Source: Alphaproteobacteria bacterium (GTDB lineage: Bacteria; Pseudomonadota; Alphaproteobacteria; UBA3830). Taken from it: a stretch of 7,896 nucleotides of DNA. The stretch lies in NCBI GenBank assembly GCA_025998595.1, contig BNWE01000063.1, forward strand, positions 1-7,896, read 5' to 3'. The notes beneath the pieces are model-generated. The model had not been told where the DNA came from, did not search any database, and saw only the letters and a list, made by a program, of their open reading frames with translations. Shown here one piece after another: positions 352-7,761 of this stretch. Every line of letters begins with the position of its first letter. The first letter of the stretch is position 1. The position numbers were made by a program, and so were the translations under genes.

Positions 352-1962
352 GTGAAAAAAATATCGGAAATTATTAGTTTCGAGCTTCCGGATGAGATAA
401 AATGCTTGGAAGTGTCAGGAATATGTGATGACTCAAGAAAAGCCTCGGAAGGATGTCTGTTCGTTGCAATAGATGGCTCCCTGGATGACGGAAAGAAGTA
501 CGTGGACGACGCCATTGCTCGTGGAGCCAAATACATCGTGTTAAACGGTGAAGAAAATCACGCTATGCAAAACGATTCTGGCATAACATATATATATGTA
601 AAGGATTCTCGATGTGAATTGTCTCATATTGCATCTAGGCTTTTTCCAAACGATTTAGATTATGTTGTGGCAATCACCGGAACAAATGGAAAATCATCCA
701 CCGTTGATATTGTGCGTCAGATTTGGACGGAGTGTGGTCGTAGATCCGCTAGTATCGGAACGTTGGGCGTCCAACATGACGTTAGATCAGATAATTATAA
801 AACGCATGCACAGCAAGCACCTGGATTCCTACGCCCCTCCGGGGCTCTGAATGACGGTGGGGTTAGTGTTTCTCGTCATCCAGAGGAGCGTAGCGACGTA
901 GGGATCCAGCTGAATAAAATCCAAAATCCCAATTTAATTGCACACACAACCACGCCAGATCCGATTCAATTGCACAAAATTTTGCATGATCTGAGTGGTG
1001 ATGGCGTGAAGAATGTTGCACTTGAAGCGTCCAGTCACGGCATATGTCAGCATAGGTTGGACGATGTTGCCTTTAACGTATGTGCTTTTACGAATTTCAC
1101 TCAGGATCATCTGGATTATCACGGAACAATGGAAGATTACTGGAAGGCAAAAGAGAGACTGTTTTCCGAAATCGCCGGAGAAAACACAGTATTTGTGGTA
1201 AATGCCGATTATGAATATTCGAAGAAAATATTAGAAATTGCGGCGGCCAGAAATATAAAATGCATAACATATGGATGTAAATCAGATGACATAAAAGTTC
1301 TTCTTACAACGACTTCTGAGACTCGTACATTCATGGGAGTTTCATTTTTTGGAAAGCAACTTCATATTTCGATGCCGATATACGGTTTGTTTCAGGTGTA
1401 TAACGCTTTATGTGCGGCTGCAATATGTTACCTAACTGGCATTCCAATCCTTGACATAAGAGATGCTCTAGAAAACATACAGCCAATTTGTGGAAGGATG
1501 GAGTTGGTGAGAAAATACAATGGAGCGAGTGTGTTTCTTGACTATGCTCACACTCCAGATGCTTTAAAAAATGCAATTGAATCCGTAAGACGTCACTTAC
1601 AAAATGAGAAAAGTAGAGTTATAACGGTGTTTGGATGCGGTGGAGATCGAGATCGAGAAAAGCGGAAATTAATGGGAGAAGTTGCAGCACAATTTTCAGA
1701 TTTTACTTTTGTTACGGATGATAATCCACGCAACGAAGATCCTGCTACCATTAGAAAAATGATAATGGAAGGATTTAGTGGAAACGACAATAAAGTCATA
1801 GAGGTTCCAAGTGGACGCAAAAACGCCATAGAAGTAGCGATGGAATTCGCGTCCAAAGGAGATTCTGTGCTTATAGCAGGAAAAGGCCACGAAAACTATC
1901 AGCAATTGGCCAATGAAATGGTATACTTCAGCGATAGAGAAGTTATTTTAAATAAGGCATAA
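352..1962 (+). CDS. murE: UDP-MurNAc-L-Ala-D-Glu:meso-diaminopimelate ligase MurE, with in-frame insertion
   Basis: This cytoplasmic Mur ligase adds meso-DAP to UDP-MurNAc-L-Ala-D-Glu using ATP. The N-terminal substrate domain (about 20-65) has the DDSRKASEGCLFVAIDG signature. The ATP loop is GTNGKSS at 110-116. The UDP-sugar-binding TTPDP is at 200-204, EASSHG at 225-230 and TQDHLDYHG at 250-258. YWKAK at 263-267 supplies K267 as the probable carbamylated lysine. The C-terminal domain has CGRMEL at 380, DYAHTPD at 397-403, GCGGDRD at 428-434, DNPR at 457-460 and GKGHE at 510-514. DNPR is the marker of DAP-adding rather than Lys-adding MurE. The start is GTG. At 536 residues it is about 40 longer than usual, and the excess lies between residues 140 and 199, where a palindromic repeat is inserted in frame. 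All catalytic motifs are intact, so it is probably functional. It ends two bases before murF. Confidence 0.96.
   Translation: MKKISEIISFELPDEIKCLEVSGICDDSRKASEGCLFVAIDGSLDDGKKYVDDAIARGAKYIVLNGEENHAMQNDSGITYIYVKDSRCELSHIASRLFPNDLDYVVAITGTNGKSSTVDIVRQIWTECGRRSASIGTLGVQHDVRSDNYKTHAQQAPGFLRPSGALNDGGVSVSRHPEERSDVGIQLNKIQNPNLIAHTTTPDPIQLHKILHDLSGDGVKNVALEASSHGICQHRLDDVAFNVCAFTNFTQDHLDYHGTMEDYWKAKERLFSEIAGENTVFVVNADYEYSKKILEIAAARNIKCITYGCKSDDIKVLLTTTSETRTFMGVSFFGKQLHISMPIYGLFQVYNALCAAAICYLTGIPILDIRDALENIQPICGRMELVRKYNGASVFLDYAHTPDALKNAIESVRRHLQNEKSRVITVFGCGGDRDREKRKLMGEVAAQFSDFTFVTDDNPRNEDPATIRKMIMEGFSGNDNKVIEVPSGRKNAIEVAMEFASKGDSVLIAGKGHENYQQLANEMVYFSDREVILNKA
807..944 (+). repeat. TGCACA direct repeats bounding a 132-base in-frame insertion in murE
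   Basis: TGCACA occurs at 807-812 and again at 939-944, a distance of 132 bases or exactly 44 codons. Deleting one copy plus the intervening DNA gives NYKTHAHTTTPDP, which restores ordinary MurE spacing before TTPDP and an ordinary length of 492 residues. The palindrome at 821-909 lies inside, with 8 bases to its left and 29 AT-rich bases to its right. The repeat could be a target-site duplication or a deletion scar. A six-base match can arise by chance, so this is inference supported by the restored spacing. Confidence 0.45.
821..909 (+). repeat. 89-base imperfect palindromic element inside murE (RPE-like)
   Basis: The outer arms CTGGATTCCTACG (821-833) and CGTAGGGATCCAG (897-909) pair at 12 of 13 positions. 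The inner arms CTCTGAATGACG (845-856) and CGTCATCCAGAG (874-885) pair at 11 of 12. An 11-base poorly paired segment separates them on each side, and the loop is 17 bases (857-873). By my count 53 of 89 bases are G or C, well above the surrounding DNA. It is translated as murE residues 157-186, including SRHPEERSDVGIQ. I recall peptides of this type as scattered repeats in several alphaproteobacterial genomes, and Rickettsia palindromic elements are known to insert in frame in genes in this way. The exact family name is not claimed. Confidence 0.8.
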
Positions 1963-1964
1963 TA

Positions 1965-3353
1965 ATGAAGGAAGTTTTTTCTAGAGAACAGTTATCGAGC
2001 ATTTTTAATCAAGATATTAGGTATGGCATCTGCGACATATGCGTCAATTCGAAAAACGCAAAAGACGGAGATCTGTTTATCGCTCTGGAGGGTGAAAACA
2101 CAGACGGCCATAATTTCATAAAAGACGCGCTCTCCAATGGAGCCGTCTTGGCTGTATCGCAACGCGATATCGAACCGGCGAATAGAATCGTTATGGTAGA
2201 ATCGTCCTACGAAGCGCTTTTGAAATTGGCCAAGTACAATCTATCCAGAACCAATGCGCAATACATAGGCGTTACGGGAAGTGTAGGAAAAACCACGACG
2301 CGGGATATGATATATCATCTGTTGGTAAATTCCCAGGAATCATCGAATGCATACGTATCCCGGAAGAATTTCAATGGCCAAATAGGTCTTCCGATTTGTG
2401 CCACTCTTATGCCTCCGGAAACAAAAGTCGGCGTTTTCGAGATGGGCATGAGCGAGTCCGGCGAAATCAGGAAGCTTATTGATATAGTCAGTCCTGATAT
2501 ATCAGTTATAACTAACGTATGCGAGACACATCTAGAGTATTTCGATTCGGTGTTTGATATAGCAAAAGCAAAATCCGAGATTTTCGAAACAGCAAAACCA
2601 CAAAAGGCAGCAATAATTCCCAATGATTTGCCTTATACGGATTTCTTGGTAAGAAAGGCTCATCAATACGATGCAGAAGACGTTTTCACTTTTGGGGCCG
2701 AGAATAAGTCAGATGCACGAATGCTGTCTTACGATTTTATCTACGATATTATCCGAGTAAAAGCTGAAATATTTGGTCAAGACATCACCTATGATTTGCG
2801 CTGCAACAATATTTCTTGTGTAATGAACAGCTTGGCAGCACTGCTTACGGTTCACGTGAAATCGGGATATTCATCGAATGTTTTAGCGGAATCCATGGAG
2901 ACATTTATGGCTCCTGCGGGACGTGGGGAAGCATTCTATATCAATAGTCATGATGTGATTATTGTGGATGACTCCTATAACGCGTGTCCGACATCAATGA
3001 GATCGGCAATCATATCGCTGTCGAAGTACAAAAACAGGAGAAAAATTGTCGTTATCGGAGATATGCTGGAGTTGGGGCCGGATTCCGTTCGCTTTCACGA
3101 AAATATTGCTCCCACGATAGATAAATTTGACGTCGATAAGGTTTTTGCCTGCGGAAAACTGTCGAAGTGTCTCTTTGATAATATTCTGGAGGAAAAGAAA
3201 GGATGCTGGTGCGAAAACTCTACAGAACTTGCTGAGAAGGTGGTCGAGAATATCGCTGATGGCGACTGCGTTTTGATAAAAGGATCAAATTCAATGAAAA
3301 TGAAATACATCGTTGATTTTATAAAAAAGCACTTCAATAAAATCGCCGCATAA
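1965..3353 (+). CDS. murF: UDP-MurNAc-tripeptide:D-Ala-D-Ala ligase MurF
   Basis: MurF adds the D-Ala-D-Ala dipeptide to UDP-MurNAc-tripeptide with ATP in the cytoplasm, completing the pentapeptide precursor. The N-terminal domain has VNSKNAKDGDLFIALEGE with DGHNF. The ATP loop GVTGSVGKTTT is at about 102-112, followed by EMGMSESGEI (159-168) and the conserved ETHLEYF with H189. The C-terminal domain has DDSYNACP at 335-342 and GDMLELG at 365-371, both typical of MurF. Its 462 residues match the family. The start is ATG, two bases after the murE stop, with AAGG at 1954-1957 inside the end of murE as a likely ribosome binding site, which suggests translational coupling. One oddity is Cys341, where the motif normally reads YNAN. 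Otherwise it is a standard, intact enzyme. Confidence 0.96.
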   Translation: MKEVFSREQLSSIFNQDIRYGICDICVNSKNAKDGDLFIALEGENTDGHNFIKDALSNGAVLAVSQRDIEPANRIVMVESSYEALLKLAKYNLSRTNAQYIGVTGSVGKTTTRDMIYHLLVNSQESSNAYVSRKNFNGQIGLPICATLMPPETKVGVFEMGMSESGEIRKLIDIVSPDISVITNVCETHLEYFDSVFDIAKAKSEIFETAKPQKAAIIPNDLPYTDFLVRKAHQYDAEDVFTFGAENKSDARMLSYDFIYDIIRVKAEIFGQDITYDLRCNNISCVMNSLAALLTVHVKSGYSSNVLAESMETFMAPAGRGEAFYINSHDVIIVDDSYNACPTSMRSAIISLSKYKNRRKIVVIGDMLELGPDSVRFHENIAPTIDKFDVDKVFACGKLSKCLFDNILEEKKGCWCENSTELAEKVVENIADGDCVLIKGSNSMKMKYIVDFIKKHFNKIAA

Positions 3354-3365
3354 GGTAAACAACAG

Positions 3366-4442
3366 ATGTTTTATAATTTTATTTTTCCGGCGCTGAATTT
3401 TATATCTGGAATGAATCTTTTGCGTTACATTACGTTTCGAACGATGTGCGCATTGCTTACATCTCTATTGATTAGTTTTTTCCTGTATCCGAAATTCATA
3501 AAAAAGTTTAGATACGCGCAGCCCATAAGAAACGATGGTCCACAATCGCACATAGTGAAAAAACAGGGAATTCCCACGATGGGTGGAGCGATTATGATTG
3601 TCAGCTCCATAGTCTCCTCAATACTCTGGGGAGACCTCACTAACAAATACATGTTACTGTTGATGATATTAACATTCTGCTATGCATTTTTGGGATTTAT
3701 GGATGATTTCCTGAAAGTAAGGAGAAAAAATACTGATGGAGTCGCCGGGAAAAAAAAATTGCTGTTCCAGATATTGGTTGCCTTTGCTTTTTCGTATCTA
3801 GTTGAATCACTGCGGTCTCCGGACATAGTTGGCCATCTTACTTTTCCGTTTTTTAAGAATTTTGCGATAGTAAATGCTCCTTTTCTTCTGATATTTACGA
3901 CATTTGTAATTGTCGGGAGCTCCAATGCCGTCAACTTGACCGATGGACTAGATGGCCTTGCGACGTTTCCTTCGATGTTAACAGCGCTGTGTCTGGGAAT
4001 AATCAGTTATCTGGTGGGGCATTTTGTGTTCGCCAATTATCTTCAGATAATCTATGTGCAATCGGTCGGAGAACTGTGTATTTTTTGCGGAGCGCTCATT
4101 GGATCATGCCTGGGATTTTTGTGGTACAATGCTCCTCCGGCTCAGATATTTATGGGAGATACCGGATCGTTAGCCATAGGTGGCGCTCTTGGCGGCATAA
4201 GCGTCATAGTAAAGCATGAATTTGTGCTTGCAATCATAGGAGGGCTGTTTGTTATGGAAGCAATGTCTGTTATGATACAGATTGCGTACTTTAAACTGAC
4301 CGGAAGAAGGATATTCCTAATGGCTCCTATCCACCATCATTTTGAGAAAAAAGGATGGCATGAGTCTACGGTCGTTGTTAGGTTTTGGATTATTTCTCTT
4401 GTTCTTGCATTAATTGGACTAGCGACGTTGAAGATAAGATGA
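3366..4442 (+). CDS. mraY: Phospho-N-acetylmuramoyl-pentapeptide-transferase MraY
   Basis: MraY is the inner-membrane enzyme that transfers phospho-MurNAc-pentapeptide to undecaprenyl phosphate, giving lipid I and UMP. Its 358 residues are highly hydrophobic, consistent with the family's ten membrane segments. Visible motifs are GIPTMGG in the first cytoplasmic loop, the Mg2+ and lipid-phosphate motif MDDFLK (D113, D114), NAVNLTDGLDGL at 187-198, MGDTGS with D265 (263-268), and APIHHHFEKKGW with the triple His at 323-325. All match active MraY. The N-terminus FISGMNLLRYITFRT resembles alphaproteobacterial MraY. The gap after murF is 12 bases and TAAGG at 3351-3355 serves as a weak ribosome binding site. 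The stop TGA overlaps the murD start as ATGA, so the two are probably translationally coupled. Confidence 0.97.
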   Translation: MFYNFIFPALNFISGMNLLRYITFRTMCALLTSLLISFFLYPKFIKKFRYAQPIRNDGPQSHIVKKQGIPTMGGAIMIVSSIVSSILWGDLTNKYMLLLMILTFCYAFLGFMDDFLKVRRKNTDGVAGKKKLLFQILVAFAFSYLVESLRSPDIVGHLTFPFFKNFAIVNAPFLLIFTTFVIVGSSNAVNLTDGLDGLATFPSMLTALCLGIISYLVGHFVFANYLQIIYVQSVGELCIFCGALIGSCLGFLWYNAPPAQIFMGDTGSLAIGGALGGISVIVKHEFVLAIIGGLFVMEAMSVMIQIAYFKLTGRRIFLMAPIHHHFEKKGWHESTVVVRFWIISLVLALIGLATLKIR

Positions 4443-5842
4443 TTTTATTAGACTCCTATAAAAATAAGCGTGTCGGAGTGATTGGTCTCGGTAAGACTGG
4501 ACGGTCTGTTATTGATTCGCTTCAGGAATCCGGGGCAATTGTCGGCGTATATGACGACTATGGCTTGGATGATTCGAAGTATATGAATTTGGCATTGAAT
4601 CTACTCTATTCTCGCGAAAGTGACCTGTTTTCAGACGATTGGAAAACACTCGATTGCATGGTGGTGAGTCCCGGTATTCATTTGCTTTGGCCCGAGAGAC
4701 ATCCGGCGGTACGATTTGCCGCGAAAAATTGCATACCGATCATCAATGATGTGGATATGTTTCAGCAGAACGTATCCTCCAAGAACATATGCATCACAGG
4801 AACAAACGGAAAATCCACAGTTACAGCACTCATTGGACACGTACTTGAGGTTTCCGGACGAAGATCCTCCGTTGGTGGAAATCTGGGACTTCCTATATTA
4901 TCGTCTCCGGCTGGTAACGATTTCTATGTTTTTGAGCTGTCTTCGTACCAATTGGAATCCTGCAATCATTTGGGATTTGATACATCTATCTTGCTAAATA
5001 TTACTCCGGACCATGTTACCCGTCACGGAGGTATGCGGGGATACATCACGGCAAAACAGAAGATTTTTGCGAATTTTCATCGGGGATCAAATGCCATAAT
5101 AGGAGTTGATGACGAGCATTGTAGCCGCATAAGAGATTTTTTAATTAGCATTAATCATCATAATGTGATTCCCATATCCGGTAAATTTGTGCCAGATTGC
5201 GGCGTTGGTTGGTACATGGGCGATCTCGTCGATAACAGAAAAGGCCATAGTATTTTCGTCTGCAAAGATAGTGAAATACTTGAGGGCGTTCACAATCGCC
5301 AGAATATAGCGGCGGCCTATGCGGCGTGTACTCTAAACGGAATCAGTAGGCAAGAATTCTGTGACGGACTGCTTTCGTTCAAAGGACTTCCCCATCGTCA
5401 GGAGTTGGTGACGGCCCTCAACGGTGTAAAATATGTAAACGATAGCAAAGCCACCAATGTTAAATCCGCCGAGCAGGCTCTCATGCGTTTCAATAATATA
5501 ATATGGATACTGGGTGGAGTTCCAAAGGAAGAAGGCGTAGAAAAGTTAACCGATTACTTTCGTAAAGTGAAATACGCGTTTCTCATAGGGGAGGCGGCAA
5601 ACGATTGGTATAAAATCATGCGATCCCACAAAGTGAAATGCGAAGTGTCGAGATCTTTGGAAATGTCTGTGAGTAACGCATATAAAATGTGCAAGCTGAT
5701 GGAAGTTGACGTTGTGCTTCTATCTCCCGCCTGTGCAAGTTTCGATCAGTTCAAAAATTTCGAAGAACGCGGAGATGCCTTTAGAAAATTCGTACAGGAA
5801 ATAGAATATAAATTAAACAACTCCAAAAGCCATAAGTCATAG
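4439..5842 (+). CDS. murD: UDP-MurNAc-L-alanine:D-glutamate ligase MurD
   Basis: MurD adds D-glutamate to UDP-MurNAc-L-Ala in the cytoplasm, the step before MurE. The N-terminal Rossmann-like domain shows GVIGLGKTG at 13-21 and VVSPGI. The central ATPase domain has GTNGKST at 121-127, FELSSYQLE, and NITPDHVTRHG ending at 197. K206 in ITAKQKIF is the probable carbamylated lysine. The C-terminal domain has GLPHRQE, NDSKATN, WILGG and the MurD signature LLSPACASFDQFKNFEERG starting at 427. With the ATG at 4439 the protein has 467 residues, normal for the family. The frame stays open upstream to an ATG at 4385, but that would add 18 residues that lie over mraY and precede the natural N-terminus. 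The ATGA overlap start is preferred. The stop lies 10 bases before ftsW. Confidence 0.96.
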   Translation: MILLDSYKNKRVGVIGLGKTGRSVIDSLQESGAIVGVYDDYGLDDSKYMNLALNLLYSRESDLFSDDWKTLDCMVVSPGIHLLWPERHPAVRFAAKNCIPIINDVDMFQQNVSSKNICITGTNGKSTVTALIGHVLEVSGRRSSVGGNLGLPILSSPAGNDFYVFELSSYQLESCNHLGFDTSILLNITPDHVTRHGGMRGYITAKQKIFANFHRGSNAIIGVDDEHCSRIRDFLISINHHNVIPISGKFVPDCGVGWYMGDLVDNRKGHSIFVCKDSEILEGVHNRQNIAAAYAACTLNGISRQEFCDGLLSFKGLPHRQELVTALNGVKYVNDSKATNVKSAEQALMRFNNIIWILGGVPKEEGVEKLTDYFRKVKYAFLIGEAANDWYKIMRSHKVKCEVSRSLEMSVSNAYKMCKLMEVDVVLLSPACASFDQFKNFEERGDAFRKFVQEIEYKLNNSKSHKS

Positions 5843-5852
5843 AGAGTAACTA

Positions 5853-6974
5853 ATGTTTTCTTTTTCTAGAACAGATAGTGGAATTCTCGGAACCTGGTGG
5901 TGGACAGTTGATCGCGTTATGCTCTTTTCTTTTATGGTAATAATTGCCATAGGAATACTAATGGCGGTATCTGCTACTCCCATGGTCGCCAACCACTTGG
6001 GAGTTGAAAGATTTTATTTTTTCAAGAGACACCTGTTATACATAACGCCATCTTTGCTAATTATATTTCTGGTATCCACATTTGATAATTCTGCCGTAAA
6101 AAAACTAGCGCTATCTCTGTTTATTGTATCTATTCTTCTGACAGCGTTAACTCTTTTTATGGGAACCGAAATAAAAGGCGCCAGAAGATGGATATCCCTA
6201 GGTGGATTTTCCCTACAGCCATCTGAATTTTCCAAACCGGCGTTGACGGTTCTAACAGCCTGGATGTTTGCGGAGGAACGAAAGAACAAAGAATTTTGCG
6301 GAAGAATCATAGCGTCGTTTTTTCTGCTCATTAACGTTTTTCTTCTGCTGCTACAGCCGGACATAGGCATGATTGTGGTTACGGTTGCCGTTTGGTTTGG
6401 TCAGCTGTTTCTAAACGGTCTTTCCATTGCATTGGTATTGGCGGTAATTGTTTTTTCCGTATGTGGATTTATATTGGCATACCTATTTATTCCACACGTA
6501 ACGACCAGAGTCGATAAGTTTTTGGATCCGTCCATTGGAGATCACTATCAGATAAATCGATCGCTTGAAGCGTTTGCAAATGGAGGAGTATTTGGAGTTG
6601 GGCCTGGAGAAGGCGTCATAAAAAAGCATCTGCCAGACGCCCATGCAGACTTTGTATTTGCAGTTTTGGGAGAGGAATTTGGATTTTTCTTCTGCGCATT
6701 TGTCGTAGCTCTCATATGTTTCGTTGTGGTATATGGAATGATCCGTGTTCTAAAGGGAAATGATCTCTTCCAAATATTTGCTTCGGTTGGACTGCTATCA
6801 CAATTTGGACTGCAGTCTTTCATAAACATTGCTTCCGCACTTCATTTTATTCCGACGAAGGGAATGACGCTACCGTTCATGAGCTACGGAGGATCGTCCA
6901 TGTTGGCCGTAAGCGTTTTAGTAGGGATGATATTGGCTCTTGGAAAACGCAAAAACATTCATTATGAGGAATAA
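5853..6974 (+). CDS. ftsW: Septal peptidoglycan glycosyltransferase FtsW (SEDS family)
   Basis: FtsW is the SEDS-family polymerase that joins lipid II into glycan strands at the division septum, working with the transpeptidase FtsI. The protein has 373 residues and roughly ten hydrophobic segments, with a short cytoplasmic N-terminus. Family motifs are RRWISLGGFSLQPSEF at 111-126, LLQPDIGM, the periplasmic loop sequence LPDAHADFVFAVLGEEFGF from 260 with D266 as the likely catalytic Asp, and the C-terminal PFMSYGGSS at 341-349. RodA shares the fold, but the position within a mur cluster and the AHADF/GEE sequence favour FtsW. GAGAG at about 5842-5846 precedes the ATG. The last codons contain GAGGA (6966-6970), the ribosome binding site of the next gene. 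Confidence 0.93.
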   Translation: MFSFSRTDSGILGTWWWTVDRVMLFSFMVIIAIGILMAVSATPMVANHLGVERFYFFKRHLLYITPSLLIIFLVSTFDNSAVKKLALSLFIVSILLTALTLFMGTEIKGARRWISLGGFSLQPSEFSKPALTVLTAWMFAEERKNKEFCGRIIASFFLLINVFLLLLQPDIGMIVVTVAVWFGQLFLNGLSIALVLAVIVFSVCGFILAYLFIPHVTTRVDKFLDPSIGDHYQINRSLEAFANGGVFGVGPGEGVIKKHLPDAHADFVFAVLGEEFGFFFCAFVVALICFVVVYGMIRVLKGNDLFQIFASVGLLSQFGLQSFINIASALHFIPTKGMTLPFMSYGGSSMLAVSVLVGMILALGKRKNIHYEE

Positions 6975-7643
6975 ATGAGAACGTTATATTATTATCCAAT
7001 GAGCCCTTTTAGTAGAATGGTACGCATCTATCTCAATGAAAAAGCTATTGAATATGAATTTGTTTTGGAAACTCCGTGGGATCGTAAGAAGAAGTTCTCG
7101 GAGAACCATATGTTTTCAGATATACCAACTCTTGTAGAAAAAGACGGACAGGTGCTGCAGGGATGGTACGCTATCGTTGAGCATGTGGAACAGATCTACA
7201 AAGCGAAATCGATGTTTGGTGCGAGCCAAAAAGAGAAGTCCGAATCCCGTAGACTTATTTCTTTGTTTAACGAAATGTTTTTTACGGATGTAACCAAGAA
7301 TGTTGTTTTCGAAAAAGTAATTAAAAGATATGTGGAAAACTCTTCTCCGGATTCTTCCTGCATAAGAAAAGCGATTGTGGGTATGAAAACATATATGGAT
7401 TATATTTCCTGGTTATCTGATAGACGGAATTGGCTTGCCGGTGATAATTTTACTCTGGCGGATATCTCGGCGGCGGCAAATATATCGTGCATAGATTATT
7501 TTGGCTCCATCGAGTGGGAACGATATCCACTGGTAAAAGATTGGTACGTTCGCATAAAGTCGCGCCCATCTTTCCGTGGTATACTAGCCGACCGAGCAAC
7601 TTCGGTGGCTCCCGTTCCCCACTATCAAGAACTGGATTTTTAA
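6975..7643 (+). CDS. fzlA: GST-fold protein, probable FzlA-like FtsZ-binding division factor
   Basis: The 222 residues form a glutathione S-transferase fold. The N-terminal thioredoxin-like domain (about 1-75) has YYYPMSPFSRMVRIYLNEK, PWDR at 34-37 and the cis-proline in DIPTLV (P51). The helical C-terminal domain has AGDNFTLADISAAANI, the N-capping box with D163, then RYPLVKDWYVRIKSRPSF. The chain ends PHYQELDF. FzlA of Caulobacter is a GST-like protein of this size that binds FtsZ, does not appear to act as a glutathione transferase, and needs its extreme C-terminal tail. From memory, FzlA-type proteins in this class share the PWxR motif and an LDF-like ending. The ATG directly abuts the ftsW stop and GAGGA sits 4 bases upstream, so it is co-translated with a division gene, which supports the role. 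An ordinary GST is the alternative. The fold is firm and the FzlA call is an inference. Confidence 0.72.
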   Translation: MRTLYYYPMSPFSRMVRIYLNEKAIEYEFVLETPWDRKKKFSENHMFSDIPTLVEKDGQVLQGWYAIVEHVEQIYKAKSMFGASQKEKSESRRLISLFNEMFFTDVTKNVVFEKVIKRYVENSSPDSSCIRKAIVGMKTYMDYISWLSDRRNWLAGDNFTLADISAAANISCIDYFGSIEWERYPLVKDWYVRIKSRPSFRGILADRATSVAPVPHYQELDF

Positions 7644-7733
7644 AGAATTTTGTGAGTATGAAGAAAAAATACTATCTGTTCGGAGTAATTAAAATCTGGG
7701 AAATACTTAAATCCTGAACCGGTGAGTCACGAG

Positions 7734-7761
7734 GCCAATTGCAAAAAAGCGTCAACTTGGC
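7734..7761. repeat. Small imperfect inverted repeat
   Basis: GCCAATTG (7734-7741) pairs with CAACTTGGC (7753-7761) with a single bulged base, enclosing an 11-base A-rich loop. It is not followed by a T-run on either strand, so a rho-independent terminator is not supported. Its role is unknown. Confidence 0.35.

Follow-up and report, generated by a model that had tools for sequence, protein, structure and literature searches.

A dispersed palindromic repeat translated within murE of an alphaproteobacterium, apparently stacked on the remnant of another repeat

How does a palindromic repeat come to be translated within an essential enzyme of cell-wall synthesis? The question is raised by a 7,896-nt stretch of alphaproteobacterial DNA (the window), whose open reading frames and Pfam matches give the gene order murE-murF-mraY-murD-ftsW followed by a GST-like gene. 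The host gene of the insert, murE (352..1962, forward strand, as are all features below), has a GTG start and encodes 536 aa in a frame that is uninterrupted across all 536 codons, palindrome included. Its product (P0001) features Mur ligase domains by Pfam, and the P-loop, TTP and DNPR motifs together with the fold identify it as MurE. An earlier note, made from the sequence alone, had described an in-frame interruption of murE that spares the catalytic motifs, and this proved correct: the P-loop (GTNGKSS, residues 110-116; 679..699) lies in invariant columns of an alignment of relatives, while the TTPDP motif (residues 200-204; 949..963) is likewise intact, with T200 and P202 invariant. We take the P-loop, TTPDP (substrate) and DNPR motifs to play their customary roles in this protein.

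P0001 derives from one contig and one member sequence. Its nearest MurE relatives are P0002 (63%) and P0003 (62%), both from records labelled 'Alphaproteobacteria', followed by P0004-P0006 from Holosporaceae metagenome-assembled genomes (55-56% to P0001). P0003 is contained in the MurE ORF of a sister genome, G012, against which murE has a dN/dS of 0.22, loop codons included, and murF, mraY, murD, ftsW and the GST-like gene have values of 0.06-0.10. Judged by these ratios, murE is under purifying selection that is weaker than in its five neighbours, and some relaxation of constraint on the window murE is possible given that its dN/dS exceeds theirs. At its start, the window holds the 3' end of a truncated frame (1-127; REIENKLNNRPRKVLNFKTPREVFVANRIVSPLDALRF*) that presumably resembles the C-terminus of an IS30-type transposase. 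Pfam gave no match for the 38-aa piece at 3-116, and the DNA of 1-127 recurs in nine G012 contigs, several times near a contig end. Among the matches listed, no other repeats of note lie within the window.

The palindrome and its place in MurE

The palindromic core (821..909) consists of two head-to-head CGTC-tagged halves, in which the right half (874-909) runs CGTC...CCAG and the left half (821-856) does the same on the reverse strand. The nested arms described earlier are real: the outer pair (821-833/897-909) matches at 12 of 13 positions and the inner pair (845-856/874-885) at 11 of 12, around a 17-nt spacer or loop (857-873). Nested arms of like quality (12-nt arms, at least 11 pairs, span of 120 or less) were found in none of 200 dinucleotide shuffles of the window. 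The 89-nt core is 60% G+C, compared with 41% for the window, and folds as RNA at -42.1 kcal/mol, the strongest value among 507 89-nt windows of murE and 781 tiles of the whole window, in which the next-strongest 89-nt fold reaches -31.2 kcal/mol. The corresponding z-scores are -3.2 as RNA (815-915) and -3.5 as DNA (821-909), and in the murE mRNA this element, which we call A, is a predicted hairpin, as had been proposed. Folded alone, the 36-nt halves behave differently: the right half has a z-score of 0.08, and the left half forms a 5-bp stem with a z-score of -1.59. No Rfam family matched the element at the gathering threshold, plasmid records held no match to 801-930, and viral contigs yielded seven pattern matches but not one MurE relative.

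The extent originally given, 821-909, stands for the core; the full feature is larger. Several G012 copies share a right-hand tail (910..941), with matches ending at 939, 941, 939, 936 and 940 for the copies on contigs C19, C12, C61, C82 and C25, respectively, and pairwise matches place the whole unit between 816-821 and about 939-941. To the left, 792-821 looks like the remnant of a different repeat, discussed below. By eye, GCAC at 817-820 recurs at 940-943, a pair that could, as a weak post hoc reading, represent a 4-nt target duplication, in which case 119 + 4 = 123 nt would keep the frame.

The palindrome is read through as residues 157-186, ending 13 residues before the TTPDP motif as the earlier note had counted, within an enlarged loop of 60 residues between the GTLGV and TTP motifs (772..948) that was delimited by the alignment of relatives and by a break in collinearity. 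A motif rule allowed this loop to be measured in 114 of 120 listed proteins (6 were not measurable), and in 111 of the 114 it spans 8-16 residues. Longer loops occur in only three proteins: P0001 (60), P0002 (40) and P0003 (35). These short loops rule out an ancient conserved loop of MurE as the origin of the segment. The window is collinear with G012 contig C22 over 202-665 (78%), 676-770 (82%) and 960-7645 (82%), and the breaks coincide with an insert of a second repeat family, B, in G012 and with the loop itself (771-959). Because the flanks are collinear and the loops of relatives are short, the element represents an insertion into murE. Only one of the six frames is open across 801-945.

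An AlphaFold2 model of the window MurE, built from a 52-row alignment, has a mean pLDDT of 89.2 and a pTM of 0.88, and its best match among solved structures is E. coli MurE (1e8c). The sole low-confidence stretch of the model, residues 146-195, is the insert. The translated segment most likely lacks both order and function and is tolerated by MurE. Elsewhere among the relatives, P0031 carries a low-complexity insert (EKSEAERSEKSEK) before the P-loop.

A dispersed family and its use in genes

To place the element in its genomic context, we searched 49 genomes of the order, entered via the MurE locus of Holosporaceae UBA3830. Matches were found in at least five of them (at least 21 in G012, where 18 of 32 candidates were scored, at least 18 in G026, at least 6 in G028, at least 4 in G019 and at least 1 in G043), and those outside G012 span the right half only (query positions 52-92 of 94). 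Class-wide, partial matches were found in at least 3 of 385 genomes, with up to two candidates scored per entry listed. Copy counts refer to G012, a draft assembly that may include foreign contigs and that was sampled through contigs C1-C102 (1,275,636 nt out of some 1.6 Mb, the smaller contigs being left out); the window organism itself is sampled through its contig alone. An iterated nhmmer profile seeded with window 781-960 (168-nt model, the extended profile) identified 46 loci in these 1.28 Mb in addition to the window copy, and 24 of the 47 cover at least 60% of the model. A core-only profile seeded with the 89 nt of 821-909 identified 14, 28 and 27 G012 loci after one, two and four rounds. 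By these sequence matches, the window palindrome belongs to a dispersed repeat family, A, in line with the earlier note, although the copies come from the sister genome and not the host.

The means by which family A spreads was sought among Y1 (RAYT) transposases. Pfam Y1_Tnp matches occur in 21 of the 49 draft genomes, 20 of them over the cut-off, and G012 has only a fragment covering 44 of 121 positions. There is no Y1 match in the drafts of G028 and G043, which contain partial A matches, and no half-element adjoins any of the 20 Y1 loci inspected, which leaves a RAYT transposase unsupported as the mover of A. No mobilising enzyme for family A was identified among the genomes searched.

Two further families, B and C, accompany A in G012, with 24 and 128 profile loci, respectively, in contigs C1-C102. 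Their coding use was assessed with stop-to-stop ORFs of at least 180 aa, which cover 77% of G012 bases and within which copies near the ends may lie outside the true gene, as for an A copy that precedes a LolA domain. Such ORFs contain 86 of the 198 loci: 6 of 46 for A, 10 of 24 for B and 70 of 128 for C. The frames used are uneven. Family C is read in one of the six frames 34 times and in a second 25 times, the others accounting for 5, 3 and 1 (68 scored, two weak copies being unscored), while 8 of 10 B copies share one frame, as do 4 of 5 A copies when the window is included and two weak copies are left out. The suggestion that family A tolerates translation in this frame is weakly supported by the frame of its few ORF copies, but among 23 near-full-length G012 copies a single one falls within a long ORF (10 of 22 for B, 62 of 98 for C), and no frame is open in 11 of the remaining 22. 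The latter count rules out A as a repeat built for translation. Copies outside ORFs have a mean of 0.73 open frames for A, 1.83 for B and 2.28 for C. As far as these counts in G012 go, family A is mostly intergenic and its murE copy unusual, while B and C are gene colonisers.

The genes entered are diverse. A Pfam scan was made of 30 host ORFs, comprising 6 for A, 9 for B besides murE and 15 for C taken down the list and thus non-random. All 30 match a Pfam family at E ≤1e-4, and 29 also exceed the curated cut-off. With names inferred from their domains, the hosts include aminoacyl-tRNA synthetases (AspRS-type, CysRS, Glu/Gln-type, LeuRS and GlyRS-beta) as well as MnmA, TruB, TilS-type, RecO, Fhs and ProC-type proteins, and partial A copies lie in TilS, RecO and glycosyltransferase ORFs. 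Among 40 copies in 29 host ORFs, 31 fall outside the best Pfam stretch, 6 inside and 3 at its edge, a count based on best stretches only, so that breaks inside a domain are scored as outside. A 529-aa frame at 8395-9981 of a further G012 locus (L292, contig C35) encodes diaminopimelate epimerase and RNase H domains, separated by a C copy at residues 351-391; on its sequence, this could possibly be a gene fusion bridged by a repeat.

The enlarged loop and its possible history

In the two nearest relatives, too, this loop has been enlarged by a repeat, but a different one, which the earlier note had missed. The sister MurE, P0003, carries a family C element in its enlarged loop and a family B element before the P-loop, neither related to A. 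Its loop DNA has 16 matches in G012, itself being one of them, and none in the other 48 genomes searched. For the loop peptide of P0002, a search of G012 and nine other genomes gave 9 matches, all in G012; the peptide appears to resemble family C read on the reverse strand. The loop inserts of P0002 and P0003 differ in sequence, and both proteins have the family B insert before the P-loop. Family B is found in 16 of the 49 genomes by DNA and 14 by peptide, and a family-B-like peptide also lies near the C-terminus of another relative, P0012, in its C-terminal domain. The window has no profile match to family B; a 21-nt blastn match at 7729-7749, behind the GST-like gene (90%, E 8e-4), is not confirmed by the profile. 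In another genome, G014, a first look gave 151 family-B-like candidates, and a near-identical piece of this kind lies near bases 16-105 of contigs C1, C7, C8, C11, C14, C18, C22 and C24, a pattern suggestive of assembly breaks at a high-copy repeat.

Also missed was a putative 30-nt remnant of the family C 3' end (model positions 78-107) at 792..821, abutting A. Family C has no match elsewhere in the window at E 10, and with filters off this segment is the sole match. Its score of 4.5 bits, obtained with a profile built without window sequence, was reached in none of 1000 shuffles of the loop region, and among 59 tiles only the two over 792-821 score at least 4. A GCAC/GCAT-like left flank is present in 3 of 10 G012 A copies inspected, and just one of these three adjoins a called C locus; the final bases of the remnant may therefore belong to A. 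The remnant is read as THAQQAP, a minority reading at a 3' end that most coding C copies read as VNACAA, which suggests that its history included further indels.

Families A and C also lie together more often than expected in G012. Of the 46 A loci of the extended profile, 9 have a C locus no more than 100 nt away, against a mean of 1.8 and a maximum of 7 at random (none of 500 permutations reached 9); 6 of these 9 pairs overlap in coordinates, and 4 of the 6 A copies in ORFs are within 100 nt of a C copy. The core-only profile, which excludes the C remnant in the first query as the cause of adjacency, placed 6 of 27-28 A loci near C after two and four rounds (random mean 0.9, 0 of 500), two of the six adjacencies being at one place. 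The 14 strongest core-only loci, from one round, showed no excess (1 of 14, reached by 190 of 500 permutations); as profiled here, the excess concerns partial A copies. The permutations used random positions, so permissive sites may inflate it. No comparable link was seen for family B, with 0 of 24 loci adjacent. A separate 656-aa frame (L300, G012 contig C43, 8035-10002) has three C copies and one A piece in a row behind a glycosyltransferase domain.

We consider it likely that in the window lineage a family A copy entered MurE at a surface-type loop, that this loop had earlier been enlarged by an in-frame C element, and that only a frame-keeping copy survived selection. An in-frame C element would have enlarged the loop first, making it neutral ground; family A would then have entered the C-enlarged loop, and selection would have kept a copy that added a multiple of three nucleotides overall and was open in one frame of six. 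An older C element is suggested by the C copy in the P0003 loop, the C-like peptide of P0002, the window remnant and the A-C excess, on which grounds A in the window murE probably landed on an already tolerated C element. Instead, the loop may just be permissive, A having entered it in the window and C in the relatives as independent events, with no prior C element in the window murE. This would suit the shortness of the remnant (30 nt, 4.5 bits), the unlike loop inserts of P0002 and P0003, the repeats at other MurE sites (B before the P-loop and the related peptide near the P0012 C-terminus) and the lack of adjacency among the 14 strongest A loci. The remnant, however, lies exactly at the junction with a score that no shuffle in 1000 attained, and A-C adjacency exceeds chance under both profiles, the core-only one at two and four rounds; we regard independent hits as rather unlikely, though worth serious consideration.

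The element could also have been kept for a function, either in the mRNA, where a hairpin might slow or regulate translation of murE, or in the protein as a useful segment. Neither murE nor the rest of the window has a stronger local RNA fold, and many REPs are argued to act as RNA elements in Di Nocera 2013 (PMC3733652), yet the two closest relatives have other sequence in this loop, most relatives have no insert, the segment is predicted to be disordered and the three repeat families occur in many unrelated genes, which makes such a function improbable. A metagenome assembler might also have joined the murE flanks through a repeat copy from elsewhere, since repeats cause chimeric joins and P0001 comes from one contig and one member sequence. 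Such an artefact is highly improbable: both flanks belong to the same murE and are collinear with G012, the frame is kept across 536 codons, and relatives carry inserts in the same loop.

Successive insertion into a tolerated loop may be part of a wider process. On a tentative view, to which we give somewhat less than even credence, repeats spread in frame through housekeeping genes across the clade, as the share of loci in ORFs might suggest, and an established in-frame repeat serves as a landing pad for the next, the murE loop passing from about 14 residues to C and then to a C remnant plus A. If so, tolerated coding repeats would seed more repeats and genes would grow by nested insertion. 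The murE series (short loop, C, C remnant plus A) would provide a test of how selfish DNA becomes protein and why loops are re-entered.

Comparison with known repeat systems

Coding palindromic repeats are known chiefly from Rickettsia, with scattered intragenic REPs elsewhere. The Rickettsia palindromic elements (RPEs) are small interspersed palindromes, with several families per genome, that lie in frame inside ORFs of probably functional proteins. Family A is alike in being a multi-copy interspersed palindrome with in-frame copies in probably functional ORFs, and it differs in that its host is Holosporaceae-like, that it is mostly intergenic and that two families are apparently stacked in murE. 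Likened by layout and placement and not by sequence homology, element A behaves as an RPE-type coding palindrome, the kind that the earlier note had proposed. MITEs, small non-autonomous repeats with inverted ends, are also able to enter genes; for A, neither a parent transposon nor a terminal match nor a firm target duplication has been established. We know of no earlier report of coding repeats in Holosporales, most subscription papers lying outside our search. Literature on Holosporales and palindromic sequences gave nothing on repeats, judged by titles or the start of abstracts, and the available part of a Holosporales review (PMC11909080) makes no mention of palindromes, repetitive DNA or transposition.

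The layout of A recalls the CGTC-tagged REPs. As described in the 2013 survey by Di Nocera et al. (PMC3733652), these have a CGTC tag at one end and a CCA-type tail at the other, head-to-head dimers predominate, and units of CGTC-1 to CGTC-4 form an 8-9 bp stem with a 4-5 nt loop. Family A shares the inward CGTC tags, outward CCA-type tails, head-to-head arrangement with a short spacer and mainly intergenic placement. The G012 profile consensus has the same head-to-head layout as the window copy, and an exact-tag scan of G012 and the window found 16 units, with two head-to-head pairs and one tail-to-tail pair. In contrast to the published units, the halves of A have no 8-9 bp unit stem and pair with each other instead; we have therefore not filed A in CGTC-1 to CGTC-4.

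Parallels extend to the genes entered. That survey equates RPE-4 and RPE-6 with CGTC-4 and CGTC-1 of R. conorii, intragenic copies included, and places RPE-1 in the R. conorii gene for tRNA pseudouridine synthase B (PMC3733652), to which the family C copy in the TruB ORF of G012 may be compared. It also reports that recB of Xanthomonas campestris and of X. oryzae is occupied at nearly the same position by REPs that differ (PMC3733652), a situation like that of the murE loop, where different repeats occupy about the same site of a gene in related species. Here, however, the families are unrelated, the host is an essential wall enzyme and there are signs of one repeat atop another. The kind of element is thus known, as in Rickettsia; the novelty lies in its lineage, in the repeat families and in their apparent stacking within murE. 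This would be a second lineage in which several unrelated repeat families have entered essential genes, two of them apparently stacked in one loop, and the palindrome in the loop of MurE provides an example of repeat DNA turned protein.
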